Shown in pieces: positions 8,229 to 55,594 of a stretch of 64,000 nucleotides of DNA; positions within the stretch are counted from its first letter, which is position 1, and each line of letters begins with the position of its first letter. Below the pieces are notes generated by a model that was not told the DNA's origin, did no database searches, and was given only the letters and a program-made list of their open reading frames with translations. Both the position numbers and the translations under genes were made by a program. The DNA comes from Zetaproteobacteria bacterium CG_4_9_14_3_um_filter_49_83 (GTDB lineage: Bacteria > Pseudomonadota > Zetaproteobacteria > Mariprofundales > Mariprofundaceae), in the NCBI GenBank assembly GCA_002791545.1, contig PFXG01000008.1, positions 1 through 64,000 of the forward strand, written 5' to 3'.

Positions 8229-8247
8229 CTCGTGCCTCCCGAACAAT

Positions 8248-8874
8248 CTATCGGCCACTGACTTGTTTCTTTTTCGCTGTTACTTTTGTTTTATCGGATT
8301 GTTCCACAAAACGATACGTCATCACATTCCCCTTGACCGAAATAACGGCGCCATCACCTTGCCTAGACATTTCCACATTTTTGACTGCCACAATACGGGG
8401 AAGCTCTCCGACTCGTTTCAAAAAAGTTAAAAATTGCCTGAATGATCCGGTCAAACTGACATCAACTGGCACCTCAGCATATAGTGGTTGAGCTTTTTCA
8501 TTTTTAGGAGAAAAGGTTGAAAACTCCAATCCTGAATCTACGCCGGAACGAGATACACTCTCCAGCAAGTCTGGAATCTGTGATTGCTTGGGCAACATAC
8601 TCAAAGCGGCTTTCAATTGGATTTCAAGCTTGTCGAACTCTTCGCGCTTTTTCGGCAAGTCGCTTGCAAGCCTCTGGTTTTTCACAAGTAAATCTTTTTG
8701 CTGCTGAACTTGAGATTCTTCCGTAGTAATTTCATCTAGCAACGGCTTAAGCCCAAAGTTTATATACAAACCCATTATTAGTAACACAACAGCCGATAAA
8801 CCGGCAATTTTTTGCCATAACGGCAGTGGTAATAGGGGGCGAAGTGCATCTACATTAATATCTTCGATATTCAT
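8248..8874 (-). CDS. pilO: Type IV pilus inner-membrane alignment protein PilO
   Basis: 208 residues: a short cytoplasmic N-terminus, one membrane helix (about residues 24-43), a coiled coil rich in Glu/Gln/Lys (about 50-95) and a ferredoxin-like periplasmic domain with the PilO-typical LTGSFRQFLTFLKRVGELPRIVAV segment (shown in part: SFRQFLTFLKRVGELPRI). PilO pairs with PilN and connects the motor platform to the PilQ secretin through PilP. It overlaps pilN by four bases (ATGA), indicating translational coupling. The C-terminal tail is Lys-rich. Confidence 0.95.
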   Translation of the reverse strand: MNIEDINVDALRPLLPLPLWQKIAGLSAVVLLIMGLYINFGLKPLLDEITTEESQVQQQKDLLVKNQRLASDLPKKREEFDKLEIQLKAALSMLPKQSQIPDLLESVSRSGVDSGLEFSTFSPKNEKAQPLYAEVPVDVSLTGSFRQFLTFLKRVGELPRIVAVKNVEMSRQGDGAVISVKGNVMTYRFVEQSDKTKVTAKKKQVSGR

Positions 8875-9479
8875 GATTTCTTGCCCTTAGTAGCTGATGC
8901 CTTTTCTTTTTTATCTTTTTCTTTTTCCTCTTCTGTTTGTGGATTCAAACGAACAAGGCTTAATTCAAATTCGCGAACTGATACGCCATCTATACTATTC
9001 CTTCGGATCTCCTTTAGCTTCACATCACCAAAAAATTCTGAGCCATCCAAATTTCGCATAAAGTTAGCAATAACCTTATTAGTTTCTGCCCAACCATTCA
9101 GCGTAAGCGAGTTTCCATTAATTACAATTTGTCCCAACCATGCTTTTTCCGGAAGCCCTGTAGCTAAAGCGTGTAGTGTTTCCAATGATTCGAAACGCCC
9201 TTTTTGTAATTCATCGACTGTTTCCAGCTTACGTTCCACATCGGCTCTCAACGCATCGATATCTTTAATCTTACCAATTTTCTTCTTCAACACTTCATTT
9301 TGGCCCTGCAACGTTGCCAACTCAGCCTTCAGCTCATCCAAGTTAGAGGCTTCGAAACTATTAACACCAAATACAATTAACGCCACAAAAACCAAAGTGC
9401 CAATCAACCAAGCTAAATGCTCAAAAATCTGTTTCTGACGCCTTTGAGTTCGATATGGGAGGAGGTTTATGCGAATCAT
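8871..9479 (-). CDS. pilN: Type IV pilus assembly protein PilN
   Basis: 202 residues. The N-terminus MIRINLLPYRTQRR carries the conserved INLLP motif that inserts into the groove of PilM. One membrane helix follows (about 21-42), then a coiled coil (about 45-100) and the periplasmic fold with LNGWAETNKVIANFMRNL. The tail is almost pure Lys/Glu (EEEKEKDKKEKASATKGKK). It overlaps pilM by four bases and pilO by four bases, so the three genes form a tight operon. Confidence 0.95.
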   Translation of the reverse strand: MIRINLLPYRTQRRQKQIFEHLAWLIGTLVFVALIVFGVNSFEASNLDELKAELATLQGQNEVLKKKIGKIKDIDALRADVERKLETVDELQKGRFESLETLHALATGLPEKAWLGQIVINGNSLTLNGWAETNKVIANFMRNLDGSEFFGDVKLKEIRRNSIDGVSVREFELSLVRLNPQTEEEKEKDKKEKASATKGKKS

Positions 9480-10552
9480 TCGTCAAAACTCCTTAACGCA
9501 AGACCTACCGGTACCATCATCATAGGACCGATGCGCTCCAAATATGCTAAGTCGAATTTTTTAGGATTTACTTTGATGACACTAAAAGGATTCACCAAAT
9601 GCGCTTCTATACCCAAGCGCTGACTTAACTCTTCGGTAATATTCGGGATTAGAGCTCCGCCACCGGATAAATAAAGCGCCTGCACGGGTGATTCAGCATT
9701 ATTTGCAGCATAGAAATCCAGCGAGCGGACAATCTCTGATGTTAAGCCCATATAGAAGCGCTCAACAGCCTCAGAACTAATCTCTTGAAACCGCTTGATT
9801 TTCATATCTTCTGCGGCCTGAAAACCAATCACATGTTCCTTTTGAATCTCTTCTGTGAGATTTACTCCACCATAAAACTGGTCTCGCACAAAAGCCATTC
9901 TTCCATTTTTAAGAATGTTGATATTGATAAGGTTGGCACCAATATTGATGAGTGCAACTGCGTATTCCGCCTCTTCCTCAAAGCTTTCGACCATATCAAC
10001 TTCTGTAGTTCCCATAAGCTCAGAAGCATTTTCAAGAGCAAAAACGGCGCAATCAACGCATGTTGTTTCCAGACCAGCCTCGCCCATCACCAGCTGATAA
10101 TCATCAACCACCTCTCGCTTACAGGCCACTAAAACCACATCCATCATCTCCGGATCCTCTTTAGTCGGGCCAAGAATCTGAAAGTCCAGGTAAACATCAT
10201 CAATATCGTAAGGAACATGCTGGTCTGCTTCAAACTCAACTTCGGATTCAAACTCGAACTCAGACATGTTAGCAACTTGTGCAGTTTTAATAATCACAGA
10301 GTTTCCGGAGATGGCAAATGCAATCCGGCGAGAGCTCGGGCGGGCAACATCGATTGCATCCAACAACGCCTGTGATACAGCCATTGAGTCAATAACTGTA
10401 TTTTCAACAATAGCATCTCGCGGCAATGGAACTATAGCCATAGACTTCAATTCATAACCAGAACGCGACTTCGAGAGCTCAAGCATTTTGATCGCCGTTG
10501 AGCTCAAATCAACCGCGATCAGGCTGTCATCTTTTTTCGAAAAAAGGTTCAC
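9476..10552 (-). CDS. pilM: Type IV pilus assembly ATPase-like protein PilM
   Basis: 358 residues, the usual length. PilM is an actin-like (FtsA-type) cytoplasmic protein that binds the PilN N-terminus. Visible features are the N-terminal LIAVDLSSTAIKMLELS phosphate-1 loop, the IGANLININILKNG phosphate-2 segment and YLSGGGALIPNITEEL near the C-terminus (adenosine motif). It is the first gene of pilMNO-Q. A gap of 95 bases separates it from the upstream synthase-like gene, enough for its own promoter; GAGGG stands a few bases before the ATG. Confidence 0.96.
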   Translation of the reverse strand: MNLFSKKDDSLIAVDLSSTAIKMLELSKSRSGYELKSMAIVPLPRDAIVENTVIDSMAVSQALLDAIDVARPSSRRIAFAISGNSVIIKTAQVANMSEFEFESEVEFEADQHVPYDIDDVYLDFQILGPTKEDPEMMDVVLVACKREVVDDYQLVMGEAGLETTCVDCAVFALENASELMGTTEVDMVESFEEEAEYAVALINIGANLININILKNGRMAFVRDQFYGGVNLTEEIQKEHVIGFQAAEDMKIKRFQEISSEAVERFYMGLTSEIVRSLDFYAANNAESPVQALYLSGGGALIPNITEELSQRLGIEAHLVNPFSVIKVNPKKFDLAYLERIGPMMMVPVGLALRSFDE

Positions 10553-10647
10553 TTGCCCTCCCTTTATTCATGTTTCACTGGCATATAGTTACGCAAGTTA
10601 GCTTAGTTAAAAGAATAATGTCAAGAAAAACAACTTGTTTCATCTCA

Positions 10648-13518
10648 TTATCCTTCCTTAATCATATCCATGCTTTCAAGCAACTTACTATCCTCATCTA
10701 CCAACCCGATTGCTTTTGAAAGATCTTCAGTTGCCTCATCACGGTTACCCTTACCCCAGTTTGCCATAGCACGATAAAAATATACCCTTCCAACAGATAT
10801 TCCCTTACTAGAAATATAACGGTTCAACATCATCAATCCTTCATCGTATTGCTTCATTTGCACAAGCAATCGACCACTCCTGTAAGCAGCATCTGCATCT
10901 TCCGGATCTATTTCCAACTCATTTCGAAATGCCTTCACAGCAAGGTCAAGCTGCCCCAATGATTCATAACACGACCCCATATTATAAAATGTATTGTCAT
11001 GTTGCGAGTCTCTCTGTAATACTTTTTCAAAAACTGTTAAAGCTTCTTCATAGCGCTCCAGCTTCATCAATTGATAGCCATAAGCGTGATAGTCTTTCAC
11101 CTCTCCACGCACATCCATTTTGACCTTACGATATTCCAGCTCTTTTAAATCTATTTTTGTCTGACTATTCGACTCTTCTAACAGCTCATTCCAACGTCTG
11201 GCTATTGAAGAGGTTCCCAAGCGTGAATCGACCTGCTCAAGAAAATCAGCAGGAAATGATTCCGAGTGCTGTGGTAGTGCATGCTCAATTTCACTGATGT
11301 CAAAATGCCCCAACAATCGCCTTTTGAATTTCGGAATTCCACTTTCCTGTAGTCTTGCCATCTCAAATTCCAGCACCGGCGAGTCCGAAGTATTCAAAGG
11401 CCCTTCAGTATCACCTATCAATGCAAACACATCCGTTGTCATCAAATGGTAAGGCAACCAACTACTCATAATCTCATGTTTTTCGAACATGGCTTCTTTG
11501 AACAGCTTATGATTTGTCACTTCCTGCTGCTGCTTGGCAGTTAAAGGATGATCAGATGCAATGAGCAAAAAGTACGCTGATTTAACATATAAGGCTGCAC
11601 AATATTTAAAACTATTTTTCAGTGAGCGCAAAATGATATCGGCTCCTACATCACCAATTCGCGAGTCCATCCATGTCACATACACACCGTCATCCTTGAG
11701 CCGTACCTTCACGTCATCAAAGAAATCACTGGTGTATAATTTGGAAGAACTGAAATATAAAGGGGTTGTTACGGTGTTTAAAATCAATGAATATGGCTTT
11801 TCACCGGCACGAATATAGTGGATAGCATCATCCACATGGATATCAACCTTAGCGTTATTCTCAATGTCAAAATTCCACTGACGCATTCTAAATAGATTTT
11901 CCCGTACTACAGGATTTATTTCCACTACATCCGTATGTTCAAAAAACAAACCGACGGAGGAAGCCGTAGCCCCGCTGCCGAGCCCTAGCACCAGCGCATC
12001 ATCCAGACGTGGCGAAAACAAAGTTGATAGTGCACCAACCTCTTTTTCCGACGGGTTATTTAAAGGAATACTGATATAGCCATTGATGAAGAAGTACGGA
12101 TCGCCATCCATGTAGTTGATAGAAAACACATCCTGATAACCTTTATAACGCTCAGGAAATTGCGCATTTTCCCTCGCATCAATCAAATCCTCATAGTCCT
12201 TGAAATTGGTATAGCTGAGATACAATAGATCTTCATCCCACTGTTTATGCAACACACCGCCCATAACCGCCACTGCACCAGCCATTGCCACCAATCGCTT
12301 TTTCGAATGCGATGTACTGGCAAGCAGTGCCAACACCGAGAGTAATCCAATGGTAAATAATTGAACTCCGTAATCCAAAAATCGGTGCAAGAGAAACACC
12401 ATCAGCAAGAATCCAGCCACATTGGCCAGAGATGAGATAAACAACAGCGAACCGGACTCATGGGCTACTTCACCCTTATGTGTTAACAACGCAGGCACAG
12501 TTGCCCCAAAACTCATCGCTGGCACGATCATCAGTATTGCCAGCGCAATAGCTTTGAGTAGCACCACCATGCCAAATGAACTCCCTGTTAAGGGATATAT
12601 CGCCGCATAAAGGTATGGCATCCAGCCTGCTGCCAGCATTAGGAATATCAGGCTGACAATGTTTATAATCATGACCACCTGAAAAGACAGACTAAAACGT
12701 TTGACGCACCAGGAACCAAGTGTAATTCCCAGCAGCACCCAGGCTAAAACTAAGGCAAATGACTCTCGAAATGGTCCAAAAATAAGCTCAGCATATTTCA
12801 CCATAAACAGCTGAAATATCGCCGATGCAATGCTCGCCAGTACAAGAGCCAAAATAGTTTTTGCAGGCAACGCAAAAATTAAACGTCGCAAAGATAAATC
12901 CGAAGTTATTGGCTGCTGTCTGGCAATACTTTCTTCAAAACCAAACTTCAACCCTATGGCTATCAGCAGATTAACTGCTGCAAACATAATAACTGCACCC
13001 TGAATACCAAACTGGCGAATCAAATAAAACTCGATCAAAAGCGATGTCAATGCCGCCCCTAAATTGTACACCATGTATACCCTTGAAAAGGAAGATTTGG
13101 AGTCAGCATGTAAACGGCTGAAATAGCCGGCAAACAACGGCACACTACAGCCGATTAGAAAGGCAGGAACAATCAGTAACAGTACACAGATAACCACACT
13201 TCCCATCAAATGATCAGGGAAAACAGATGATCCGGAATACACAAAACTTTCAATCCAGGACTGACTTAAGGTAATCCATAAGCCATATATTCCTATACCA
13301 CCCTCTATCGCCCAGAGCCAACGCCATAGACGATGTGCAAACACTGAACCCAGACCAATACCAAGCAAGAAAGTCATCAATATAGCAGCAGATACCACAA
13401 ACTGATCACCAATCATATTGCCGAGAATTCGACCGTATAGGATTTCGTAGGAAATACCGGCGAAACCCGATAGTAGCATCAGCGTTGGAAATAGGCGCTG
13501 TGGCATGTTGCTCTTCAT
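10648..13518 (-). CDS. Membrane-bound spermidine-synthase-like protein with C-terminal TPR repeats
   Basis: 956 residues in three parts. Residues 1 to about 420 hold around a dozen hydrophobic helices resembling a transporter-like module often fused to spermidine-synthase-like domains. Residues about 430-690 form a SpeE-like Rossmann domain with LVLGLGSGATASSVG as the nucleotide/SAM site, DVVEINPVV after strand two and VDIHVDDAIHYIRAG as the acidic strand. Residues about 815-950 hold three to four TPRs (for example YEEALTVFEKVLQRDSQHDN and AFRNELEIDPEDADAAYRSG). The family is common in bacteria but its substrate is not established; polyamine synthesis should not be assumed. It lies upstream of pilM on the same strand. 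TPRs in a pilus neighbourhood could recall PilF, but the fold is different. Confidence 0.85.
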   Translation of the reverse strand: MKSNMPQRLFPTLMLLSGFAGISYEILYGRILGNMIGDQFVVSAAILMTFLLGIGLGSVFAHRLWRWLWAIEGGIGIYGLWITLSQSWIESFVYSGSSVFPDHLMGSVVICVLLLIVPAFLIGCSVPLFAGYFSRLHADSKSSFSRVYMVYNLGAALTSLLIEFYLIRQFGIQGAVIMFAAVNLLIAIGLKFGFEESIARQQPITSDLSLRRLIFALPAKTILALVLASIASAIFQLFMVKYAELIFGPFRESFALVLAWVLLGITLGSWCVKRFSLSFQVVMIINIVSLIFLMLAAGWMPYLYAAIYPLTGSSFGMVVLLKAIALAILMIVPAMSFGATVPALLTHKGEVAHESGSLLFISSLANVAGFLLMVFLLHRFLDYGVQLFTIGLLSVLALLASTSHSKKRLVAMAGAVAVMGGVLHKQWDEDLLYLSYTNFKDYEDLIDARENAQFPERYKGYQDVFSINYMDGDPYFFINGYISIPLNNPSEKEVGALSTLFSPRLDDALVLGLGSGATASSVGLFFEHTDVVEINPVVRENLFRMRQWNFDIENNAKVDIHVDDAIHYIRAGEKPYSLILNTVTTPLYFSSSKLYTSDFFDDVKVRLKDDGVYVTWMDSRIGDVGADIILRSLKNSFKYCAALYVKSAYFLLIASDHPLTAKQQQEVTNHKLFKEAMFEKHEIMSSWLPYHLMTTDVFALIGDTEGPLNTSDSPVLEFEMARLQESGIPKFKRRLLGHFDISEIEHALPQHSESFPADFLEQVDSRLGTSSIARRWNELLEESNSQTKIDLKELEYRKVKMDVRGEVKDYHAYGYQLMKLERYEEALTVFEKVLQRDSQHDNTFYNMGSCYESLGQLDLAVKAFRNELEIDPEDADAAYRSGRLLVQMKQYDEGLMMLNRYISSKGISVGRVYFYRAMANWGKGNRDEATEDLSKAIGLVDEDSKLLESMDMIKEG

Positions 13519-13637
13519 GACGTGAACCTCTCATCGTGGGTATTTATTAGCACGATCCATTTTTAGAATACTGCAAACTTCGTCTGTGATTCACCACACA
13601 TGCTTCGCTCTTAGCGATGAAAAAAACCAATAAAAAA

Positions 13638-13663
13638 ATAGCGCCTTCCGAAGAAGGCGCTAT
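13638..13663 (-). terminator. Rho-independent terminator with a C(UUCG)G loop
   Basis: Read on the minus strand: an 11-base-pair perfect stem (ATAGCGCCTTC / GAAGGCGCTAT) closed by a TTCG tetraloop and followed by a run of T. It ends transcription of the Lys/Asp-rich gene that stops at 13699 and isolates it from the downstream synthase-like gene. Confidence 0.92.
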
Positions 13664-13698
13664 TCTATATTTTACCAGCTGTCCGTTAGGACAAAAGC

Positions 13699-14460
13699 TT
13701 ATTTACCTTTGATTTCGCGGAAAGCTTCTGGAGTGCTGGTTGCAGCAATACTGCTCCAGAAACCAGTTGCGCCGTTAGCACAGGTACATGGTGAACCAGC
13801 CACCTTGGCCTGAACATCAGCCTTATCACTTTCTGCTACGTCTTTATCCTTAGAGGCTTTGTCTTTATCCTTAGAGGCTTTGTCTTTGTCAGCATAAGCC
13901 TTGTCTTTGGCATCTTTGGCATCTTTTTCGTCTTTGTCTGCCTTAGCAGTGTTCTTAGAGTGATCTGAATCTTTCTTTTTATACTCTTCATCTTTGGCAT
14001 CTTTGGCATCTTTGGCATCTTTATCGGTTTTTTCGATATCCTTATCTGCCTTATCGATATCCTTATCTGCTGTTTCCAAATCAGTCTTTGCCTGCTTCAC
14101 CGCTTCGTCTACTGAAGCGACCAAGCCACACTCACAAACCATTGGCCCTTTAGGCGCGGCAGTGTCATTGCCTTCCTTACTGGCTTTATCCTTATCAGAC
14201 TTATCCTTACTGGCTTTGTCCTTATCGTCTTTCGAACACTCACCCAGCTTATCGCCGTGTGCTTTATACGCAGACCATGCAGACTCATCAATGCTGATGG
14301 TATTCATGTTTTCAGGGTTACCTGGTGGCACATGGCATATTTCAATTTTGTGCTCTTCAACCTTTTTACTTTCTGCCATTGCATCTGATACATACGCAAC
14401 ATTCACACCTAAAAACAGAAACATTGCACATGATGCAGTTAACAAATATCTAATCATCAT
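13699..14460 (-). CDS. Secreted Lys/Asp/Ala-rich repeat protein with terminal Cys motifs
   Basis: 253 residues; GGAG six bases before the ATG. A signal peptide ends near AMAES. Residues about 38-75 hold ICHVPPGNPENMNTISID and, further on, AHGDKLGEC: a small recurring module of secreted proteins with CHxPPGN and HGD...GxC ends. The middle (about 75-215) is low complexity, made of KDKASKDK, DKDIDKADKDIEK and KDAKDAKD strings interrupted by a MVCECGLVAS patch. The C-terminus has a GSPCTCANGATGFW segment. Cys pairs at both ends and in the middle suggest disulfides or a bound metal flanking a long charged helix; this is inference. The gene sits downstream of the minor pilins, where pilY1 or pilE often lie, but resembles neither. 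It has its own terminator and was not recognised as a named family. Confidence 0.75.
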   Translation of the reverse strand: MMIRYLLTASCAMFLFLGVNVAYVSDAMAESKKVEEHKIEICHVPPGNPENMNTISIDESAWSAYKAHGDKLGECSKDDKDKASKDKSDKDKASKEGNDTAAPKGPMVCECGLVASVDEAVKQAKTDLETADKDIDKADKDIEKTDKDAKDAKDAKDEEYKKKDSDHSKNTAKADKDEKDAKDAKDKAYADKDKASKDKDKASKDKDVAESDKADVQAKVAGSPCTCANGATGFWSSIAATSTPEAFREIKGK

Positions 14461-14591
14461 AAACTCCTTATTCCCTTTATTTCAATCCCGACCCACTGCA
14501 GTAGCTACCAATAAAACAGTAGGTTTGCGAGCTTGTCAAGGCGTTACGCTATCGCCTATGAAAGAGCAAATCCGTGACTTCAATCACAAAC

Positions 14592-15626
14592 CTAGAAAAA
14601 CAATACCGTGCGTATCATTTTCCTGGCTTTGCCATTCACAAAGCCAACCGCATAAGCCACTAATCCATACTGACCACTTTGCAGCCACTCTCCGCTAGTA
14701 CCGTCACATGCTAAAATCTGAGAAGAAGTCGTCTCCATGGCCAGAATATCACACGGTATATTTTGATAATAGCTTCCCAGCGGATCAGGATACTCTCGAC
14801 CCAGACCATCCTGCAGAGGGATGTACATTTTATTTCCTGAAGCATCAACAGGTATATTGCCCGACGCATCCCTTTGCCACGGCCACCTTTTCTTATTTGA
14901 ATCAACTATGGAATGACTGTATACATCCAGAAACGGTGCTGCGTACATATCCACCGGGTACAAATAGCGATCCTTTTGTTTATCCCCTGCGGTCAACCAA
15001 ACTACAGCGCCATTCAAAGGAATGTCGACGCCTTTCTCAGTTCCATGATGAGGAAAGTTTGGACTGTATGGTGGCAATGCTACTGTAATATCCCCATTTT
15101 CATCAATATCCAGCCGAATATAACGTGGCAATTCCTTACTGATATTAAACAAGACTGGTGATGCCGAATTCGGCCAGCTGATCGTTCTATCTGCAATAGG
15201 GCGATTATCCATGTACATCAACTGGCCAAAATTTAACTTGTTATCAAATGTGCCGGAGACCGAATCATCACCGCTTGGATTCCCGATATTGGATAACCAC
15301 TCCTTACGATCACCAACCAGCTCCGGATCAGGCAATGCTCCACGCACATCAGGCTCAGAAAAAGTGAACCTGCCATCCGCATCCACCGCATCAGGATAAA
15401 TAAAACTATCAAATTCTGCATCGTTCAACAAAGCCCACGACACATAATTCACTGCTGTTTCTGCATAATAAAATGCCTCGGTTGCCGATTCCGCTGATGC
15501 CGTTGTTTTTTGAGAAACCTGAGTTGAAAAATAAACAGCAATGGACAGCATTGTCAGCAGCGACAACAAAACCAAAGAGGTTGCCAACACAAAACCACGT
15601 TCCTTATTGCTCTTATCTAATGACAT
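14592..15626 (-). CDS. PilX-type minor pilin-like protein
   Basis: About 344 residues. The frame opens earlier, but ATG 15626 is chosen because AAGGA stands seven bases upstream and it starts two bases after the pilW stop. The N-terminus MSLDKSNKERGFVLATSL, then a hydrophobic stretch, matches PilX N-terminal proteins: Gly before Phe, a prepilin-like helix, and AFYYAETAVNYV as in PilX. The rest is a large domain without recognised motifs and is about twice as long as classical PilX. It is the fourth gene of a minor-pilin operon, which likely primes pilus assembly. Confidence 0.8.
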   Translation of the reverse strand: MSLDKSNKERGFVLATSLVLLSLLTMLSIAVYFSTQVSQKTTASAESATEAFYYAETAVNYVSWALLNDAEFDSFIYPDAVDADGRFTFSEPDVRGALPDPELVGDRKEWLSNIGNPSGDDSVSGTFDNKLNFGQLMYMDNRPIADRTISWPNSASPVLFNISKELPRYIRLDIDENGDITVALPPYSPNFPHHGTEKGVDIPLNGAVVWLTAGDKQKDRYLYPVDMYAAPFLDVYSHSIVDSNKKRWPWQRDASGNIPVDASGNKMYIPLQDGLGREYPDPLGSYYQNIPCDILAMETTSSQILACDGTSGEWLQSGQYGLVAYAVGFVNGKARKMIRTVLFF

Positions 15627-15628
15627 AT

Positions 15629-16204
15629 CTAATTCCTTGGCCAAATTTTAAAGCTTAATTCCAGATCAGCGATCTTTTTTTCCTTATCGAGATACTCTGC
15701 AGCCAAAGAAACCTGTCGAGTCGCCCTTAAGTCACCATTATCTTTTGGCAAAACATCCAGCCCCGGAACAGCCTTTGACACAGCAATATCCCGTATTAAC
15801 TCCTGACATCCGCTATTATCCAATGGTCTGTCCCAACAAATCCTTGGGCCCACCGGTTTATCTGTTAGAAGCTCAAATGATCCATTGTCGTTGCCGGGGC
15901 CTGTACAGGAAGAACTGAGAACAACAGCGGAATCAATGGGCTGATAGACAATCCTTTTCTTTGAATTATCCCAGCAAACCGTTTTAGCACCACGTAATTC
16001 CGACTGCATTATCTGTGAAGCAAGGAACAAATCTCCCATCGCCTCTGTTTTCCCGTTCATCATATTCGCAACATTGGTTTGTGAAACAAATACTGAAACC
16101 ATTCCAGCCAGCAATATCATCGCAATAACCAGCGAGACCAGAACTTCAACCAGGGTAAACCCCCTCTCGAACTGATGCATATGATTAGAAGGAGTAGACA
16201 TCAC
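15629..16204 (-). CDS. pilW: PilW-type minor pilin
   Basis: 191 residues. A short leader ending QFERG precedes FTLVEVLVSLVIAMILLAGM, the class III prepilin signal with Glu at +5 of the mature protein. The following QTNVANMMNGKTEAMGDLF and SQIMQSELRGA resemble PilW. It overlaps pilV by four bases. Cys residues at CWDNSKK, SSSCTGP, ICWDRP and GCQEL could form disulfides. The gene name is assigned from position and the N-terminal segment; exact equivalence to Pseudomonas PilW is likely but not certain. Confidence 0.82.
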   Translation of the reverse strand: MMSTPSNHMHQFERGFTLVEVLVSLVIAMILLAGMVSVFVSQTNVANMMNGKTEAMGDLFLASQIMQSELRGAKTVCWDNSKKRIVYQPIDSAVVLSSSCTGPGNDNGSFELLTDKPVGPRICWDRPLDNSGCQELIRDIAVSKAVPGLDVLPKDNGDLRATRQVSLAAEYLDKEKKIADLELSFKIWPRN

Positions 16205-16725
16205 AACGCTCTGGTAATATGCGTCAACAATACGCTGCGCAACTCATTTTTATGCATCCATGACACCTTCACAGACCTGAGCTTTACTGATGCCGAAGAA
16301 GGATTCGTTGGATCTTCAAGAAATGGACCGAGAATGCTAGCGCCAGGCCCTGATGCATTCGGATTATTCGCATGCTCGGGAGGAATAGGACCTTTTGCGT
16401 CCACCTCATTAATGAAAATATCAAATAACACAGGCACACCAATATTCGGAGTGCAACTCGCCAACGTCTTACCTACCACCAGTTGACCTGGCGCCTTTCC
16501 TTTAGGTGCCAGGGTGCATTCCGGTGTTGGCGGATTATTAGTTTGCTGCCAATCTTCAATTAACTGTTCAGCCATATGTACAGCGGCCAAGCGCTCCTGA
16601 GCTATACCTTCCTGGCTGATAGAGGATACATAAAATGAACCTAATGCCAACATACCTATTGATATCACTGTAAGGGTCACAAGAACTTCTGTCAGCGTGA
16701 ATCCCGATGCCTGTTGAGCCTTCAT
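16201..16725 (-). CDS. pilV: PilV-type minor pilin
   Basis: 174 residues. The N-terminus MKAQQASGFTLTEVLVTLTV is a prepilin leader with cleavage after Gly and Glu at +5. A PilV-like helix follows with SQEGIAQERLAAVHMAEQLIEDW. It starts one base after the fimT-like stop and overlaps pilW by four bases, so it is co-translated. The C-terminal half ends KVSWMHKNELRSVLLTHITR, typical of PilV/GspI-type proteins. Confidence 0.85.
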   Translation of the reverse strand: MKAQQASGFTLTEVLVTLTVISIGMLALGSFYVSSISQEGIAQERLAAVHMAEQLIEDWQQTNNPPTPECTLAPKGKAPGQLVVGKTLASCTPNIGVPVLFDIFINEVDAKGPIPPEHANNPNASGPGASILGPFLEDPTNPSSASVKLRSVKVSWMHKNELRSVLLTHITRAL

Positions 16726-16726
16726 T

Positions 16727-17239
16727 CTATAGCCCCTTACACGTTTTTATCACGCCCACATCAGAATCTTGGGTTATCATGTAAGCACGGCCGATTAAAT
16801 TAACGGAGATACATTTATAATAACCTCCTTGAACAAGTTTAAAGGTTGTTACTTGCCCTGCAATCGATCCCTGACTATCAAATGTCAGATTATTAGTGCG
16901 ATTCTTTCTTATTTCCAATTGAGGAGAAAATTGCGCCAATGTTATTGTCTCCTGCGTACAGTTCTCACAGTTGCCCGTAGTATCCACGTCATAAATAATT
17001 TTTTTTGCAGCCGGATCAATTTGAAGAGTAATACTACGACTTTCTGCGACAGCCAGATTTCGAGCCTGCTTCAATTTATTCATTAACGTTGAATTGGCAT
17101 TATTAACCGCGCTGTGCTCTGACCAAGTTTGATATGCCGGAAAAGCAATGGAAGCCAAGACACCCAATATGGCAATAACGACCATCAATTCAAGCAGAGA
17201 AAAGCCCCTCTCGGAACTTTCAACCTGAGAGTCTTGCAT
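16727..17239 (-). CDS. FimT/GspH-type minor pilin
   Basis: About 170 residues from ATG 17239, which gives the leader MQDSQVESSERG before FSLLELMVVIAILGVLASIA. Longer starts exist at 17290 (with AAGGGA upstream, 29-residue leader) and GTG 17338, but they run into the divergent PBP1A gene. The FimT/GspH pattern continues with NNANSTLMNKLKQARNLAVAESRSITL. Two Cys pairs are seen (NCENC and KC...C). It is the first gene of the four-gene minor pilin operon. Confidence 0.85.
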   Translation of the reverse strand: MQDSQVESSERGFSLLELMVVIAILGVLASIAFPAYQTWSEHSAVNNANSTLMNKLKQARNLAVAESRSITLQIDPAAKKIIYDVDTTGNCENCTQETITLAQFSPQLEIRKNRTNNLTFDSQGSIAGQVTTFKLVQGGYYKCISVNLIGRAYMITQDSDVGVIKTCKGL

Positions 17240-17288
17240 GCCATGCCGCTTTACGCTTAGGCTTCGAACAATGCGCGCACTTATATTC

Positions 17289-19619
17289 ATGGCAAAATCA
17301 TCCCTTCTGTTTATTTTAGTTTCTGTGATTATCGTCACATTAGGCTATTTTTATTACTCTAGCAAGCTTCCGACATTAGCTTCCTTAGCTACTTATCAGC
17401 CACCATTAGTAACTCGCGTCTATTCAGATCAAGGTGAATTACTAGCAGAGTATGCCGATGAACATCGTATCCTGACACCTTTTTCACGTATCCCAAAAAA
17501 AGTCAGCAATGCCTTTCTCGCCGCTGAAGACCAGCAATTTTATGAACACCCCGGCATCAACCCAGCTCGCGTATTATCGGCAGCACTTGCCAACCTCAAA
17601 GCCGGGCATACGGTACAGGGTGGTAGTACCATCACCCAACAGGTTGCTAAGAACTTTCTACTTTCCTCGGAGAAAAAACTCAGCCGAAAAATCAAGGAGG
17701 CCATTCTTTCCTACCGCATTGAACAGCAATTTTCCAAAGATGACATTCTTTATTTATATTTAAATCAAATTTATCTCGGCCGAGGTGCGTATGGCGTTGC
17801 ATCCGCTGCCTGGAGATACTACGGAAAAACGCTTGATGAATTGACCCTGGCTGAATGCGCCATGCTTGCCGGATTACCTAAAGCTCCCGGAAAATATGCA
17901 CCGCACCTGGATACAGAGATAGCAAAAAAACGTCGGAATACTGTGTTGTATTTAATGGAAAGAAGTGGTTTTGCCTCAGCCAATGATGTGCGTGCCGCAC
18001 TGGATGACCCCATTGAAGTCAAACCCCTTTATCCTAACAAGCTCGAAGATGCCTACGGCCATGAAGTTCACCAGCAACTGGTCCATACTTATGGCTTGAA
18101 AACATTACGCAATCAAGGGCTTACCATTGTAGTTCCTTACAATGGCGAGGCTGAAACATCTGCCGTCTCGGCGATCAGAAAAGGTGTTTTGGAAGTTGAA
18201 CAACGACAATTTTTCCGCATCCCCGAGAATCACCCCGAAAAAACCTGGAGTCAAATGTATAAAACCTGGCGAAGCGACTTCTCCTCACCGCCTACAGAAG
18301 AAACCATCATTCCAGCAGTGATTGAAAAAATCACTCCGGCAGGTGAGCTACAAGTCAATGATGGCCAACATCAATGGCTGATAAGCAAACCAACCTGGCA
18401 ATGGGAAGCTTACACGGATGAGATGACGGATATGCAAAAGCAGCACCCCAGACGTTGGCTGGTCGGGGATCAAGTGTGGCTTCAAGGCGATGGCAAACAA
18501 GGCGTGCGCCTGAGCCAGCAACCCTCCATTGAATCTTCTCTCTATGCCATCGACCTTGAACGCGGAACAGTATTAGCACGTGTTGGTGGTTACCAGTTCA
18601 GCTTTGGTGGCTTTGATCGAATCACTCAGGCGAAACGTCAGCCGGGATCAGCATTCAAGCCTTTGCTTTATGCTACCGCCATGGAAAACAATTTCACCCC
18701 TGCTTCTATTGTAATGGATACACCTCTGGTCTTCGACAACGGCAACACCGATAGCTTCTGGCGACCAGAAAATTATAAAAATAAATTTGCCGGCCCCGTT
18801 ACACTACGCAATGCTCTGGAGCACTCCCGCAACTTATCTTCCATTAAATTACTGCAAGATCTCGGCATTCGCACCTTCACTGATAAATTGCGCGATTTTC
18901 CGTTTGACCACGAGTTTCCTAATCATCTCTCTTTGGCTTTAGGAGCAACTGAAGTGACTTTGGAGCAATTAACCGAAGCCTATATCCCGCTGGCCGATCA
19001 GGGCCGCTTATGGAAACCTGTACTGATCGAACAAGTGCAGGATCGCACCGGCACCAGCGTTCACCGCAGCGTTGCCGGCCATCGTTGCCAAACCTGCCAT
19101 GCCTCTCCGGTACTTGCCGTCGGCACATCCATGCAGCCGGCCAGACAAGTGCTAGAGCCTTCTGCCGCATTTCTGACTGAAAACATGATGCAGGGCGTCA
19201 TCCAGAATGGTACAGGGCAACGTGCCCGTGCACTCAATCGCCCGGCAGCAGGGAAAACCGGCACCACCAACAATCAGGTAGATGCCTGGTTTATGGGATT
19301 CACGCCACAAATTCTGACCGGTGTTTGGACAGGCCGTGACAATTCACAACCTATGGGCCGACAGGAAACAGGGGCTCGCGCAGCATTACCCACATGGCTT
19401 CAAGCCATGCAGGCCTTTCACACAGGCAAAGCCACCTCGAATTTTGTAGCTCCAGTCGATATAGAATGGGTTATGATTGATCGGAAAACAGGGAAATTGG
19501 CTGGCCCCGACACAAAAAACACTTTAATGGAGTCTTTCAAGCAGGGCACAGCCCCAACTGAAACGGACACATCCACTGAAGAAAAATCAGCAGGGAACTT
19601 TTTTGATGCTGAATTTTAG
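17289..19619 (+). CDS. mrcA: Class A penicillin-binding protein PBP1A
   Basis: Bifunctional peptidoglycan synthase of about 776 residues. One membrane helix lies at about 5-25. The glycosyltransferase domain shows AAEDQQFYEHPGI (catalytic Glu), VQGGSTITQQVAKNF and LNQIYLGRGAYGVASAA. An OB-like insert fills about 300-430. The transpeptidase domain has RQPGSAFKPLLYA (catalytic Ser in SAFK), SRN in LEHSRNLSS and KTGT in AAGKTGTTNN. The start is uncertain: ATG 17238, 17271 and 17289 are all in frame and none has a strong ribosome site. 17289 puts the membrane helix right after the start and would share a CATG with the alternative fimT start. It ends four bases inside the convergent MFS gene. Confidence 0.95.
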   Translation: MAKSSLLFILVSVIIVTLGYFYYSSKLPTLASLATYQPPLVTRVYSDQGELLAEYADEHRILTPFSRIPKKVSNAFLAAEDQQFYEHPGINPARVLSAALANLKAGHTVQGGSTITQQVAKNFLLSSEKKLSRKIKEAILSYRIEQQFSKDDILYLYLNQIYLGRGAYGVASAAWRYYGKTLDELTLAECAMLAGLPKAPGKYAPHLDTEIAKKRRNTVLYLMERSGFASANDVRAALDDPIEVKPLYPNKLEDAYGHEVHQQLVHTYGLKTLRNQGLTIVVPYNGEAETSAVSAIRKGVLEVEQRQFFRIPENHPEKTWSQMYKTWRSDFSSPPTEETIIPAVIEKITPAGELQVNDGQHQWLISKPTWQWEAYTDEMTDMQKQHPRRWLVGDQVWLQGDGKQGVRLSQQPSIESSLYAIDLERGTVLARVGGYQFSFGGFDRITQAKRQPGSAFKPLLYATAMENNFTPASIVMDTPLVFDNGNTDSFWRPENYKNKFAGPVTLRNALEHSRNLSSIKLLQDLGIRTFTDKLRDFPFDHEFPNHLSLALGATEVTLEQLTEAYIPLADQGRLWKPVLIEQVQDRTGTSVHRSVAGHRCQTCHASPVLAVGTSMQPARQVLEPSAAFLTENMMQGVIQNGTGQRARALNRPAAGKTGTTNNQVDAWFMGFTPQILTGVWTGRDNSQPMGRQETGARAALPTWLQAMQAFHTGKATSNFVAPVDIEWVMIDRKTGKLAGPDTKNTLMESFKQGTAPTETDTSTEEKSAGNFFDAEF

Positions 19620-20743: not shown

Positions 20744-20793
20744 CGGGTAACCCTATCGGAGATTCATAGGCTTACCACTGAAGGTAAGTAGCC

Positions 20794-22506
20794 ATGCCAG
20801 AGAAACCCATCTATCGTTACGACATGGGAAATATTCAAGATGTCGATACTATTATTGTTGGGCAGGGTATTGCAGGCAGCTTGCTGGCGTGGAGCCTTAC
20901 AAAAAAAGAACAACGTATAGCAGTCATCCATGATCCGACAAAACATTCTGCTTCCCGTGTTGCTGCTGGTGTCGTTAACCCTGTTACCGGTCAGCGGTTG
21001 GTGTTGCAAAATAATATTGAAGATTTCCAATCCGCCGCCAGAAAACTCTACCGGGATCTGGCTCAAGCTTTTGGTGAAGATTTCTACATCGCCAAACCAA
21101 TGATTCGTCTGGCGCGCAATACAGCCGAAAGCAAATCATATTTTCAGCGCCTGAATGACCCCGCTTATTTGCCCTTCCTGCAAGCTTTACCCACCGAGAA
21201 CCCTGTTCGCCAGGAGCTCTGCTTTAATGAAAAGCAGCAAATCTGGCTACAGCAACACACCGGATATTTGCGCATGAACCCCTTACTGGATGCACTGCGC
21301 AGCTATTTTCGCAAGCAACATGTGTATGTTGAAGCATCTGTTAATTATGCTGACATCCAAATCACTGATAAGCAGACGCATCCCGTCAGTTGGAATAATA
21401 TCAAAGCCCGCAAACTGATTTTTTGCGAAGGTTACCTTATGCAGGAAAACCCCTGGTTTAACTGGCTTCCCATGCAAGCCGCCAAAGGTGAAATTCTAAC
21501 CCTGCAGCGCAAAACCCCTCTGCCTTCTTTTATGCTTCACTCTGGCCACTGGTTGCTTCCCACCGATGCCCATACCTGCAAAATTGGTGCAAGCTATGAA
21601 CCTAAGTCGCACAGCCTGAGCATATCCGAGGATGTAAAATCCATGCTTTTAAAAGCTGTTATAAGCTGGTTTCCCGGAATACGCGACGGGCAGGTAACCA
21701 TGCACCAGGCAGGCATTCGCCCCGGCTCACGCGATAAACATCCATTCATCGGTTGGCATCCGGCGCACACGATGCTGGGCATTTTCAATGGCTTTGGCTC
21801 GCGCGGCTCGTTACTGGTTCCGTGGTATGCTGAAGCATTCAGCCATGCCATCACAAAAAATGCCCCGATCCCTGAACAAGCTGATATCAGACGCTTTGCG
21901 CCTTTGCCTACAAACAGCAAGCGCCCTGCCCGTGTGACCTTAACCACTCAGGCACAGCAACGACTCTCCGTAATCCTCAAACCCGGCTGCATTGCCGTTG
22001 ATGCAACGGCTGGCAATGGACACGACACGGCATTTCTAGCTCGCCAAGCCGGCCCGGACGGATATGTATATGCTTTTGACATTCAACCTCAAGCCATTGC
22101 CAATGCACAAAAGGCCATTGAACAGCTGGCGCATTCAGACGGAAATATAGCTCCGGTACAGTTTGTACAGCATAGCCATGCCGATCTTTTACAGCATCTG
22201 GCACTCGAACACATCGGCCGTGTTTCAGTCATCATGTTCAATCTTGGATACTTGCCCGGATCAGATAAGTCAGTGATCACGCACGCCGAATCCACCTTGC
22301 AGGCGCTGGAAGCTTCGCTGCTGGCTCTGACACCCAATGGCACGCTCAGTATCATGGTTTATCCCGGCCATCAGGGCGGAAGCGATGAAGCCAATGCTGT
22401 CATGGCATGGAGCTCTACCCTGAAAGCACACTTCCCAGGCATCAGCATTGAATACATCAGCAGCAACAAAGCTCATGCACCGCAATTGATTTCGATCAAA
22501 AAATAA
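20794..22506 (+). CDS. Fused FAD-dependent DAO oxidase + YtqB/MnmM-type methyltransferase (candidate MnmC analogue)
   Basis: 570 residues. Residues about 15-365 are a DAO-type flavoprotein: DTIIVGQGIAGSLLAW (FAD-binding GxGxxG), SASRVAAGVVNPVTGQR after it, and a C-terminal GIRPGSRDKHPFIG then GIFNGFGSRGSLLVPW. Residues about 385-570 are a SAM methyltransferase of the YtqB type: VDATAGNGHDTAFLA (motif I, about 401-414), VYAFDIQPQAI and the hallmark MFNLGYLPGSDKSV (about 480-493), then MVYPGHQGGSDEA. YtqB of Bacillus is MnmM, which methylates nm5(s2)U34 of tRNA, while DAO enzymes such as the MnmC oxidase half make nm5U from cmnm5U. The protein therefore looks like a MnmC replacement with oxidase first and an unrelated methylase last. 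Function is inferred from domains. AAGG nine bases upstream supports this ATG. Confidence 0.9.
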   Translation: MPEKPIYRYDMGNIQDVDTIIVGQGIAGSLLAWSLTKKEQRIAVIHDPTKHSASRVAAGVVNPVTGQRLVLQNNIEDFQSAARKLYRDLAQAFGEDFYIAKPMIRLARNTAESKSYFQRLNDPAYLPFLQALPTENPVRQELCFNEKQQIWLQQHTGYLRMNPLLDALRSYFRKQHVYVEASVNYADIQITDKQTHPVSWNNIKARKLIFCEGYLMQENPWFNWLPMQAAKGEILTLQRKTPLPSFMLHSGHWLLPTDAHTCKIGASYEPKSHSLSISEDVKSMLLKAVISWFPGIRDGQVTMHQAGIRPGSRDKHPFIGWHPAHTMLGIFNGFGSRGSLLVPWYAEAFSHAITKNAPIPEQADIRRFAPLPTNSKRPARVTLTTQAQQRLSVILKPGCIAVDATAGNGHDTAFLARQAGPDGYVYAFDIQPQAIANAQKAIEQLAHSDGNIAPVQFVQHSHADLLQHLALEHIGRVSVIMFNLGYLPGSDKSVITHAESTLQALEASLLALTPNGTLSIMVYPGHQGGSDEANAVMAWSSTLKAHFPGISIEYISSNKAHAPQLISIKK

Positions 22507-23348: not shown

Positions 23349-23860
23349 TACTGGTTCGGAGAGGATGTTATGCGTTGATAGATCATAAAGCTGTATGCAT
23401 GTTGATTGTCTGCATCAGCTGCATGATCCTCAGAAAACGACAATTGCCAGTCTGACCAGTCAACCTCCGGAAACCATGCATCACCTGCAAATGCTTCATG
23501 AATCCGGGTCACATACAGCTTTGAAGCGTATAGCAGGCAAAGGCGATAAATTTCGCCTCCTCCGATCACCATCAGCTCTTCGTCTTGTGGCGAGCCAGCC
23601 GCCATAAGCAGAAGCTCATCAAGATTATTCACCACCGTGCAGCCATCGACGTGCAAGTCTGTCTGCCTTGTGAGGATGAAATTATCCCGCTTCGGTAAAG
23701 GCTTACCAATAGAATCAAAAGTTTTTCGGCCCATCAAAATTGCTTTACCAAGCGTATGCTCTCTGAACCAGCTCATATCGGCGGGCAACTTCCAGGGCAA
23801 CCGGTTTTCATTGCCGATCAGCCCCTGCTCATCCATTGCCCAGATCAGTGATACCTTCAT
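23348..23860 (-). CDS. folA: Dihydrofolate reductase
   Basis: 170 residues, normal for type I DHFR. It reduces dihydrofolate to tetrahydrofolate with NADPH. Visible motifs: SLIWAMDEQGLIGNENRLPW (substrate loop with the conserved LPW), ADMSWFREHTLGKAILMGRKTF (shown in part: WFREHT and MGRKTFDSIG) and LMVIGGGEIY for cofactor binding. The acidic residue in the active site is Asp in LPADMSWF. It overlaps trhP by four bases (ATGA) and is followed by the hydroxylase-family gene. Confidence 0.95.
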   Translation of the reverse strand: MKVSLIWAMDEQGLIGNENRLPWKLPADMSWFREHTLGKAILMGRKTFDSIGKPLPKRDNFILTRQTDLHVDGCTVVNNLDELLLMAAGSPQDEELMVIGGGEIYRLCLLYASKLYVTRIHEAFAGDAWFPEVDWSDWQLSFSEDHAADADNQHAYSFMIYQRITSSPNQ

Positions 23861-25254
23861 TCGACCGGATGCTGCGTCACCGAAATTTCAGGTGATGCAG
23901 ACTTGGATGATAAATTGACAGCAAGCAAACCAAACCTGCCGGGATCACATGGCACAGGGATTTTCACCACATGACCACTGCCCGGAGCAACATCCATAGG
24001 ATTGCCATAACGGGCATTGTTGATCGACTTCACAGTAAAAGTGACATTGCCGGAGGGCACAATGAGCTCAACCGAATCGCCAACGCTGAACTTGTTTTTC
24101 ACCACCACTTCCGCCAAGCCGCTGGCAGCATCATAGGCTGTGATTTCTCCGACAAAACGTTGCACTTCGAAAGTAGAATTGCCGGTCTCATAATTCTGAC
24201 TGGCCGAGGCCCGTTTACGTGTATAAAAGCCATCGGTATAACCACGGTTGGCGAGTGAATCCAGTTGACGCATCAGCGTTGCATCAAAGGATTTGCCTGC
24301 CAACGCATCATCTATGGCCTTACGGTAAACCTGCGCCGTACGGGAAACATAATAGTGTGACTTAGTTCGACCTTCGATTTTCAATGAATCCACGCCAATA
24401 TTCACCAGCCGTTCGACATGCTGAACCGCCCGTAAATCCTTCGAATTCATGATATAAGTGCCCTGCTCATCTTCAAAGATCGGCATCTGTTCTTCCGGAC
24501 GGTTGGGCTCGGTCAGTGTATACACCAGATCAGCCAGAGGATGTCGCTCAACATCACCACAATCCGAAAATGGCTGCGCATTCAATCCGTCCAGCACCTG
24601 AATCGGAATGACGTCACCAGAGATGTCTTCTGCGGCCTTATCCATACCATATTCCCATCGACAGGCATTGGTGCAGGTTCCCTGATTGGCATCTCGATGA
24701 TTAAAATATCCCGAAAGTAAACACCGGCCGGAATAGGCGATGCAAAGCGCACCGTGAACAAACACTTCAATTTCCATGTCCGGGCATTGCTGGCGGATTT
24801 CCTCGACTTCATCCAGTGATAGCTCGCGCGACAGAATCACTCTGGAAATACCCACTGACTGCCAGAATTTTACCGCTTGCCAGTTCATGGTATTAGCTTG
24901 CACCGACAAATGAACCGGCATCTCCGGCCACTTTTCGCGCACCATCGCAATCAAGCCAGGATCAGCCATAATCAATGCATCCGGCTGCATCTCAATCACG
25001 GGCTGCATATGTTCCAGATAGCGTTTCAGCTTGTTGTTGTGCGGCAACAGATTACTGGCGACAAAAAACTTTTTGCCAGCCTGATGTGCCTCTTCGATGC
25101 CGGTTTTTAAATTTTCCAGCTGAAAATCGTTGTTACGCACGCGTAATGAATAGCGCGGCTGTCCGGCATACACGGCATCCGCACCAAACGCGAAGGCATA
25201 GCGCATATTGTTCAATGTTCCGGCCGGGGCCAGTAATTCAATCTCTTTTTTCAT
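23857..25254 (-). CDS. trhP: tRNA U34 hydroxylation protein TrhP (YegQ), peptidase U32 family
   Basis: 465 residues, close to E. coli YegQ. This U32-family protein takes part in prephenate-dependent 5-hydroxylation of wobble uridine. Motifs are ELLAPAGTLNNMRYAFAFGADAVY at the N-terminus (in part: LLAPAGTLNNMRYAF), EVFVHGALCIAYSGRC, then YFNHRDANQGTCTNACRWEY with four conserved Cys for an iron-sulfur cluster, and LKIEGRTKSHYYV. A C-terminal beta domain (about 375-455) is present, distinguishing it from shorter UbiU/V. AGGAAATCAGG precedes the ATG; it lies 12 bases after comM/yifB. Confidence 0.92.
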   Translation of the reverse strand: MKKEIELLAPAGTLNNMRYAFAFGADAVYAGQPRYSLRVRNNDFQLENLKTGIEEAHQAGKKFFVASNLLPHNNKLKRYLEHMQPVIEMQPDALIMADPGLIAMVREKWPEMPVHLSVQANTMNWQAVKFWQSVGISRVILSRELSLDEVEEIRQQCPDMEIEVFVHGALCIAYSGRCLLSGYFNHRDANQGTCTNACRWEYGMDKAAEDISGDVIPIQVLDGLNAQPFSDCGDVERHPLADLVYTLTEPNRPEEQMPIFEDEQGTYIMNSKDLRAVQHVERLVNIGVDSLKIEGRTKSHYYVSRTAQVYRKAIDDALAGKSFDATLMRQLDSLANRGYTDGFYTRKRASASQNYETGNSTFEVQRFVGEITAYDAASGLAEVVVKNKFSVGDSVELIVPSGNVTFTVKSINNARYGNPMDVAPGSGHVVKIPVPCDPGRFGLLAVNLSSKSASPEISVTQHPVE

Positions 25255-46763: not shown

Positions 46764-48128
46764 CTATGCATCAACACCATTCAGCCATTGCATCAATGAT
46801 ACCAATGCTCTGTCAGAGACTGAACGACGCCTTTCTGCCCGAGAATAACGATGCTTGCCCTCTCTCTTTTTGCCCGCTGGCAGCAAACCGAAATTGATAT
46901 TCATCGGCTGAAAACCCTCTACCCGCGTGCCTGAAATATGGCCCAGTAAAGCACCATGCGCGGTATCCGATGGCGGCGCAAGCGGGTCCCGATCCATTGC
47001 TAATTCAGCCAGAAAACGACCCGCCATTAAACCCATCGAAGCAGACTCGACATAACCTTCCACCCCCGTAATCTGACCGGCAAATAAAATACGCGGCTCT
47101 TTTTTCAGGCGCAACGTGCCATCCAGCAGGGCAGGGGATTTAATAAAGGTATTCCGATGCAGCGAGCCCAGCCTGAAAAACCCGGCATTTGCCAAACCGG
47201 GAATCATCGAAAAAACGCGCTTTTGCTCACCATAAGTCATTTTAGTCTGGAAACCGACCATGTTCAGCAGTGAGCCCATGCGATTGTCGCGACGTAATTG
47301 CACCACGGCATACGCCTTCTCGCCTGTCTCAGGATGATCCAGACCAACCGGCTTCATCGGCCCGAAACGCGGCGTGTCCTCGCCCCGTTCTGCCATTTCC
47401 TCAATCGGCATACAACCGTCAAAAAACGGAATATTTTCAAAGCCTTTAAAAGCCACTTTTTCAGCCGCAACCAGCTCTTTGACGAAGGCCTTATATTGCG
47501 CTTTGTTCATCGGGCAATTGAGATAGTCTCCTGCTTCACCTTCCTCGACATTTTTATCGTAGCGGTTTTTCCAGTAGCAGAGATCCATATCGATCGACTC
47601 CGCATCCACCACCGGCGCAATCGCGTCGAAGAAGCTCAAATGCTCCTCACCCGTCAACTCCTGAATCGCCTTATACAACCCGTCTGAGGTTAACGGTCCA
47701 GACGCAATCAGCACCAGTCCATCAGCCGGAATCCGGGTGACTTCACCGGGGATAAATTCGATCAGTGGCTCAGCTTTCAGCGCCTCCGTCACCAAATGTG
47801 CAAATTGTTCGCGATCCACAGCCAGCGCCGTACCTGCCGGAATACGCGCCTTATCGCCGCAAGCCATAATCAGTGAATCCATGCGGCGCATTTCTTCATG
47901 CAAAAGCCCGACTGCATTTTCCAGATGATCGGCGCGAAAAGTGTTAGAACACACCAGTTCAGCGCAATCACCAGAGTTGTGTGCCGGTGTCATAACGAGA
48001 GGGCGCATTTCATGCAGGCGAACGGAAATACCGCGCCGCGCCAACTGCCATGCGGCTTCCGAGCCGGCTAATCCGGCACCAATAATGGTAACCGTTCGAT
48101 CTTGTGGTGAAGAGGTAATAGAAGTCAT
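46764..48128 (-). CDS. trmFO: Folate-dependent tRNA m5U54 methyltransferase TrmFO
   Basis: 454 residues. Flavoprotein that methylates U54 of tRNA with methylenetetrahydrofolate. Motifs: [21 protein letters not shown] (in part: [17 protein letters not shown]) for [23 protein letters not shown] with a conserved Cys; [39 protein letters not shown]; and [18 protein letters not shown] near the C-terminus. The N-terminus differs from the related MnmG. TrmFO is rare in gammaproteobacteria, which normally use TrmA. Confidence 0.97.
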
Positions 48129-55276: not shown

Positions 55277-55594
55277 ATGAATACACCAACTAATATCTTT
55301 TCATTGCTTGAGACACCTGAAGAGATCAGGCAGAAGCTTGGCGCAAAGGCCAAGGCATTGCGGTTGTTTAAGGGGTATAAGCGGGTGACGTTAAGTGAGA
55401 AGAGCGGTGTGTCGCCCGAAACGATTCGTAACTTCGAACAATCGGGAAAAATTACGCTGGAGAATTTTATTCGCATCGCCTACGCACTGGAAGAGAGTGG
55501 CAAGCTGGATGGCTTGTTTGATTTGCCAAAGCTCAGTTCAGTCAAAGAGATTCAGCAGCGCAAGCAGGCTTTGCCACAACGAGGCAGAAAGTGA
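55277..55594 (+). CDS. hipB: HipB-family antitoxin, HTH regulator
   Basis: 105 residues. Helix-turn-helix of the XRE/Cro type: LRLFKGYKRVTLSEKSGVSPETIRNFEQSG (in part: RVTLSEKSGVSPETIRNFEQ). HipB-type proteins bind DNA as dimers, repress their operon and neutralise the HipA kinase. The C-terminal tail is Lys/Arg/Gln-rich (SSVKEIQQRKQALPQRGRK, in part). It overlaps hipA by four bases (GTGA). The start ATG 55277 follows the weak promoter directly. Confidence 0.9.
   Translation: MNTPTNIFSLLETPEEIRQKLGAKAKALRLFKGYKRVTLSEKSGVSPETIRNFEQSGKITLENFIRIAYALEESGKLDGLFDLPKLSSVKEIQQRKQALPQRGRK

Follow-up and report, generated by a model that had tools for sequence, protein, structure and literature searches.

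A DAO-type oxidase fused to MnmM in Mariprofundaceae, a probable order-reversed counterpart of the tRNA wobble-uridine enzyme MnmC

One open reading frame in the window, the 64,000-nucleotide stretch of zetaproteobacterial DNA analyzed here, encodes a 570-residue protein in which a FAD oxidase is joined by a linker to an MnmM methyltransferase (20794..22506, + strand), as indicated by Pfam, NCBIfam, and AlphaFold2. Judged from its sequence, this fusion is very probably a bifunctional tRNA wobble-uridine enzyme comparable to MnmC but built from other parts in the reverse order, and it would convert cmnm5(s2)U34 to mnm5(s2)U34. We infer the substrate and product of the oxidase and its binding to tRNA from context, fold, and residues. 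It is also likely that the oxidase clade as a whole is a second FAD-dependent cmnm5(s2)U34 oxidase family, which supplies the MnmC(o) step for MnmM-bearing Proteobacteria and most Bacteroidia with an orphan MnmC2, and which was apparently fused to MnmM twice, giving an independently built MnmC of reversed order.

In the proposed pathway, MnmE and MnmG would make cmnm5(s2)U34 or, with ammonium, nm5(s2)U34. The N-terminal FAD domain would act on cmnm5(s2)U34 by oxidizing the C-alpha-N bond derived from glycine, and hydrolysis of the resulting imine would release glyoxylate and leave nm5(s2)U34. With SAM, the C-terminal MnmM domain would then convert the nm5 group to mnm5(s2)U34, with MnmC2 acting as the methylase elsewhere. 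Each step has a precedent: oxidation of cmnm5U as proposed is the MnmC1 reaction (PMC3648344), CmiS2 turns an N-carboxymethyl amine into the amine and glyoxylate via an imine (PMC11284099), and MnmM methylates nm5U (PMC9976899). MnmEG supplied with ammonium yields nm5U directly (PMC3936742), so that MnmM alone would need no oxidase, and this counts against the functional explanation.

The fusion gene stands alone, because the genes on either side are on the opposite strand. A plausible ribosome-binding site, GAAGG (20780..20784, + strand), lies 9 nt 5' of the ATG, and scans for promoters and terminators gave chance-level results. An earlier note on this DNA had read the protein as a DAO oxidase followed by MnmM with the motif NLGYLPGSDK, and the open 570-residue frame together with the Pfam and NCBIfam matches agrees with that order; according to Pfam, the protein is not a radical SAM enzyme. 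The AlphaFold2 model, calculated from a 40-row alignment, has a mean pLDDT of 92.5 and a pTM of 0.72 and consists of two well-folded domains, with pLDDT values below 50 confined to the N terminus and a flexible linker at residues 371-380 (21904..21933, + strand).

The DAO/glycine-oxidase-like FAD domain comprises residues 18-349 (20845..21840, + strand; PF01266, E = 6e-27) and contains the FAD-binding GxGxxG motif as GQGIAG at residues 23-28 (20860..20877, + strand). Sequence matches of the N-terminal half in the PDB were glycine-oxidase-type enzymes, the best single-sequence match among the oxidases being CmiS2 (6j38), and the Foldseek neighbors of the domain were glycine oxidases, CmiS2, iminodiacetate oxidase, sarcosine oxidases, and MnmC. 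The oxidase scores 116-119 bits with the ThiO profile TIGR02352 (cut-off 250.8) and 87-90 bits with the MnmC1 profile TIGR03197 (cut-off 174.2), which places it closer to ThiO (118.6 bits) than to MnmC1 (90.0 bits) and under both cut-offs. All six tested residues from a published list of those conserved in the MnmC oxidase domain (PMC3648344) are kept, S304, G518, R567, G578, G619, and R653 corresponding to S54, G265, R309, G320, G338, and R367 of the fusion. Ser-54 (20953..20955, + strand), aligned to the FAD-contacting Ser-304 of E. coli MnmC, is invariant in 60 clade members, and Arg-309 (21718..21720, + strand), aligned to Arg-567 of the same enzyme, is also invariant (PMC3648344). Because ThiO has most of the six residues too, they are mostly general to the superfamily. 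More telling for a likeness to MnmC1 is the GFGSRG loop at residues 333-338 (21790..21807, + strand), since an alignment with MnmC1 and ThiO gives the clade a G-x-G-S-R/K-G loop of the MnmC1 type ((A/G)LGSRG) and not of the ThiO type (GH(Y/H)RNG).

In a 74-row tree the oxidases group as a single clade (100/99) that excludes both MnmC1 (100/98) and ThiO; the tree is unrooted, and the sister of the clade, MnmC1 or ThiO, is not read from it. The grouping with glycine oxidases that had been considered as a challenge to a tRNA-related function was thus not seen, at least with respect to ThiO. Identity of the oxidase with ThiO was rejected, as the ThiO of the genome is a separate gene and the clades separate at 100/99, and identity with a bona fide MnmC1 was rejected on account of the TIGR03197 score and the separate clade.

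The MnmM methyltransferase domain spans residues 384-570 (21943..22503, + strand), of which residues 425-566 match the YtqB/MnmM family of Pfam (PF06962, E = 9e-37). With 173.6 bits against a cut-off of 135, the C-terminal half is a member of the MnmM equivalog NF053511, and its sequence matches in the PDB were YtqB/MnmM structures. Seven residues essential in bsMnmM were compared, and the six kept ones are D34, N101, Y104, K110, Y141, and H144 (PMC9976899). In the alignment, D34 corresponds to D411 in the motif GNGHD (22012..22026, + strand), N101, Y104, and K110 to N483, Y486, and K492 in NLGYLPGSDK at residues 483-492 (22240..22269, + strand), and Y141 and H144 to Y523 and H526 in VYPGH (22357..22371, + strand). 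The seventh, K11, is replaced by Q in a hand alignment and is H or Q in most relatives, which makes it less certain that U33 is contacted in an identical way and leaves membership in NF053511 unaffected.

The host genome (2.68 Mb, 99.42% complete), whose named relatives are Mariprofundaceae, was surveyed for enzymes of wobble-uridine modification. It encodes MnmG, with MnmE approximately 1.2 kb upstream on the same strand. Profile searches detected the MnmC methylase PF05430 neither in the fusion protein nor in the host genome; no MnmC1 above the cut-off was present in the genome, where the top matches were its own ThiO and the fusion, and no member of the radical SAM family MnmL (TIGR01212), for which the best match in the genome reached 27.7 bits with a cut-off of 180. 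The genome search for a classical mnmC proposed in the earlier note therefore returned none. Since MnmE and MnmG are present and MnmC and MnmL absent, cmnm5U is expected in this organism, and no candidate other than the fusion was found for converting it to mnm5U. ThiO is encoded by a separate gene (271.8 bits, cut-off 250.8). The trhP gene at 23857-25254 (- strand), encoding the prephenate-dependent U34 hydroxylase, is confirmed by its profile score (750.9 bits against a cut-off of 534). Its product TrhP is an enzyme of the ho5U/cmo5U branch of U34 modification, and the relevance previously ascribed to its proximity was discarded, as it acts in another branch and no tested result connects it to the fusion. 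The window also encodes a GidA-family protein (PF01134, 454 residues; 46764-48128, - strand) similar in size to TrmFO, a folate-dependent tRNA methyltransferase; besides MnmG, it is a further MnmG-like protein of this genome.

Among 41 genomes of the order, oxidase and MnmM are both present in 18 and both missing in 23, and neither occurs alone (Fisher, 5e-12); among the 18, one genome has an MnmM truncated at a contig end and another has the pair split over contigs. In other Mariprofundaceae genera the halves are separate genes, usually overlapping. Genomes of the family contained no convincing MnmC methylase, giving only marginal matches near 20 bits. A profile scan of the genome collection located the oxidase in Mariprofundaceae, Methylococcales, Nitrosomonas communis, and Cycloclasticus. 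At the 75 loci unaffected by contig ends, MnmM is fused in 4, adjacent or overlapping in 55, and within 1 kb in 4 more. Methylococcales-type genomes lacking MnmM beside the oxidase have it elsewhere in seven of nine cases. Forty-three oxidase-bearing genomes were tested for the MnmC methylase, and 41 lack it; the other two are Bacteroidia, both without MnmM.

Several other arrangements were observed. In two genomes whose oxidases are near that of the window in the tree (G007 and G032; loci L035 and L037), an extra open frame separates the oxidase gene from that of MnmM, which shows that overlap is not universal. Methylovulum psychrotolerans (G085, L112) and a Methylococcaceae MAG (G102, L143) have the oxidase, and no MnmM or MnmC methylase was found in them, which counts against the proposed function. 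Many genomes of the family (e.g. G001, G004, G005, and G009) lack oxidase, MnmM, and MnmC together, a pattern which suggests that they stop at cmnm5U/nm5U. The plasmid records scanned contained MnmM matches and no oxidase-MnmM pair; a Neisseria gonorrhoeae chromosome listed among them carries an MnmM homologue with an in-frame stop and no adjoining oxidase (L227, 3932-4528).

The oxidase clade extends to Bacteroidia, where it probably serves the stand-alone MnmC2, to judge by gene content and arrangement. In 148 Bacteroidia genomes, the oxidase occurs in 107 and MnmC2 in 112; 93 genomes have both, 14 the oxidase only, 19 MnmC2 only, and 22 neither, with a Fisher value of 1e-6 that is too optimistic because the genomes share ancestry and were counted as independent. 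The genomes that have one of the two genes and not the other count against the functional explanation. The two matches abut in G215, G240, G157, and G189. At the loci L181, L186, and L190 the open frames overlap, with MnmC2 first and confirmed by 186-206 bits (cut-off 136); given the relatedness of these loci in the oxidase tree, a single event may account for their overlaps. Four MAGs labeled Bacteroidia (L107, L127, L130, and L138) carry an oxidase nested in the Methylobacter clade, either by transfer from methanotrophs or by a binning error, and the Bacteroidia argument hence rests on the 148-genome sample instead.

Two other functions of the oxidase half were weighed against the proposed one. 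It could be an ordinary small-molecule amine oxidase, acting on glycine, sarcosine, or similar compounds, whose proximity to and fusion with MnmM are coincidental, while MnmM methylates the nm5U that MnmEG makes with ammonium. ThiO is indeed the nearest overall profile at 118.6 bits, and the fold matches are glycine, sarcosine, and related oxidases. However, the genome already has a ThiO above the cut-off, the clade is separate from ThiO at 100/99, the oxidase is strictly co-inherited with MnmM, and in Bacteroidia it pairs with MnmC2, another methylase with the function of MnmM, all of which makes this explanation unlikely. Alternatively, the oxidase might act on a different U34 group, demethylating mnm5U or oxidizing nm5U as a reversal or branch enzyme, which would suit the sarcosine-oxidase-like folds and the same tRNA context. 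The genomes without MnmC and MnmL would then lack an assigned cmnm5U conversion, though, and the pairing with either methylase mirrors MnmC; we regard a role of this kind as highly improbable. Oxidation of cmnm5(s2)U34 remains the preferred function of the oxidase.

The fused architecture occurs in four further Mariprofundaceae assemblies (L070, L072, L073, and L077), one of them from a pure culture. The fusion in the window groups with unfused Ghiorsea-type genes (91/90) in the oxidase tree, and the fusions of Mariprofundus sp. EBB-1, OFTM13, and M1284 belong to another clade (100/98) next to unfused genes. Placing every fusion in one clade was weakly rejected by the AU test (p = 0.037). This topology would fit either two fusions or a single fusion with several splits; the former is simpler, and fusion has apparently occurred twice within the Mariprofundaceae. 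The fused form derives locally from a two-gene module of wide distribution, the overlapping dao-mnmM genes of Zetaproteobacteria and methanotrophs.

The junction of the window's own fusion is known from one assembly. Directly after the linker, where MnmM putatively starts, the sequence GTGTGA combines an in-frame GTG with a TGA stop in the +1 frame; genes that once overlapped would be expected to have such a sequence, which may be their relic. The hexamer also fits a sequencing or assembly frameshift that joined two overlapping genes, an explanation that concerns the junction only and is compatible with the functional one. Occurrence of the junction in a single genome fits a frameshift, as does a slight resemblance of the +1-frame tail to the oxidase ends of relatives. 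On the other hand, the linker ends in frame with SKRPARVTLT, and the similarity of this end to the linkers of other fusions (KAQARLSLT, TKKPRVALT, and TKSARVSLT) favors a true fusion; moreover, MnmM-like residues begin ahead of the GTG, and true fusions exist in the four other assemblies. A frameshift in the window is accordingly quite unlikely, and whatever the status of this junction, the fused architecture itself is secure from those four assemblies.

Bifunctional MnmC of E. coli and Yersinia likewise combines the two proposed reactions, with a FAD oxidase of the glycine-oxidase superfamily and a SAM methyltransferase in one chain, whereas the fusion has the reversed order, MnmM in place of MnmC2, and an oxidase from a separate clade under the MnmC1 cut-off. 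The earlier description of an order-reversed MnmC made from unrelated pieces thus holds for the order and for the methylase, which is of a different family, but not for the oxidase, which shares the glycine-oxidase/DAO superfamily with that of MnmC although the clades are separate. The C-terminal half belongs with MnmM (YtqB) of B. subtilis and S. aureus by the curated cut-off and 6/7 essential residues, and differs in being fused, in the replaced K11, and in having a DAO oxidase as its partner. CmiS2, a FAD enzyme of the cremimycin pathway, has the same fold and performs the reaction proposed here (PMC11284099), but its substrate is a small fatty amino acid and its identity to the oxidase is about 20%. 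ThiO glycine oxidase shares the fold, the FAD site, and the key Arg and differs in clade and loop, and the host has a ThiO of its own. The stand-alone MnmC2 of Bacteroidia is a partner of the same oxidase clade, in overlapping genes at L181, L186, and L190, but is an unfused methylase of the MnmC2 family and not MnmM. In Bacillus the functions had been described as separate proteins, yet the counterpart of the oxidase there is reportedly, in a 2024 study by Jaroch et al., the radical SAM enzyme MnmL (YtqA) and not a DAO protein.

The domain order, the disorder of the linker, and the frequent occurrence of two separate genes point to linked supply and not to channeling, and linked expression together with local concentration is most likely the benefit of the fusion. 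The channeling of nm5U suggested in the earlier note is not favored, as the halves are encoded separately in most relatives, the linker lacks an ordered structure, and MnmC itself has been argued to be non-channeling (PMC3648344).

MnmM, MnmC, and MnmL are already known. A literature search whose coverage did not extend to Jaroch et al. 2024 found no paper that links a DAO oxidase with MnmM. That study is said to mention fusion proteins, which may include the oxidase-MnmM type. According to Cho et al. 2023, the enzyme that takes the part of MnmC(o) in organisms with MnmM is unknown, and Bacteroides and alpha-Proteobacteria have an orphan mnmC(m) but no mnmC(o) (PMC9976899). The oxidase clade offers one testable candidate for this gap in Zetaproteobacteria, methanotrophs, and most sampled Bacteroidia. 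Its distribution suggests that one oxidase can pair with either of two methylase families and that the joining of both steps evolved more than once. For annotation, clade oxidases lie under the tested NCBIfam cut-offs and would stay generic FAD oxidoreductases.

Elsewhere in the window, a type IV pilus cluster (5694-17338, - strand) includes a secretin, PilM, and prepilin-like open frames (14592-17338) and is adjoined on the opposite strand by a penicillin-binding protein. A HipA-family protein with HipA_C and Couple_hipA domains, possibly a toxin-antitoxin kinase, is encoded at 55591-56793 (+ strand).
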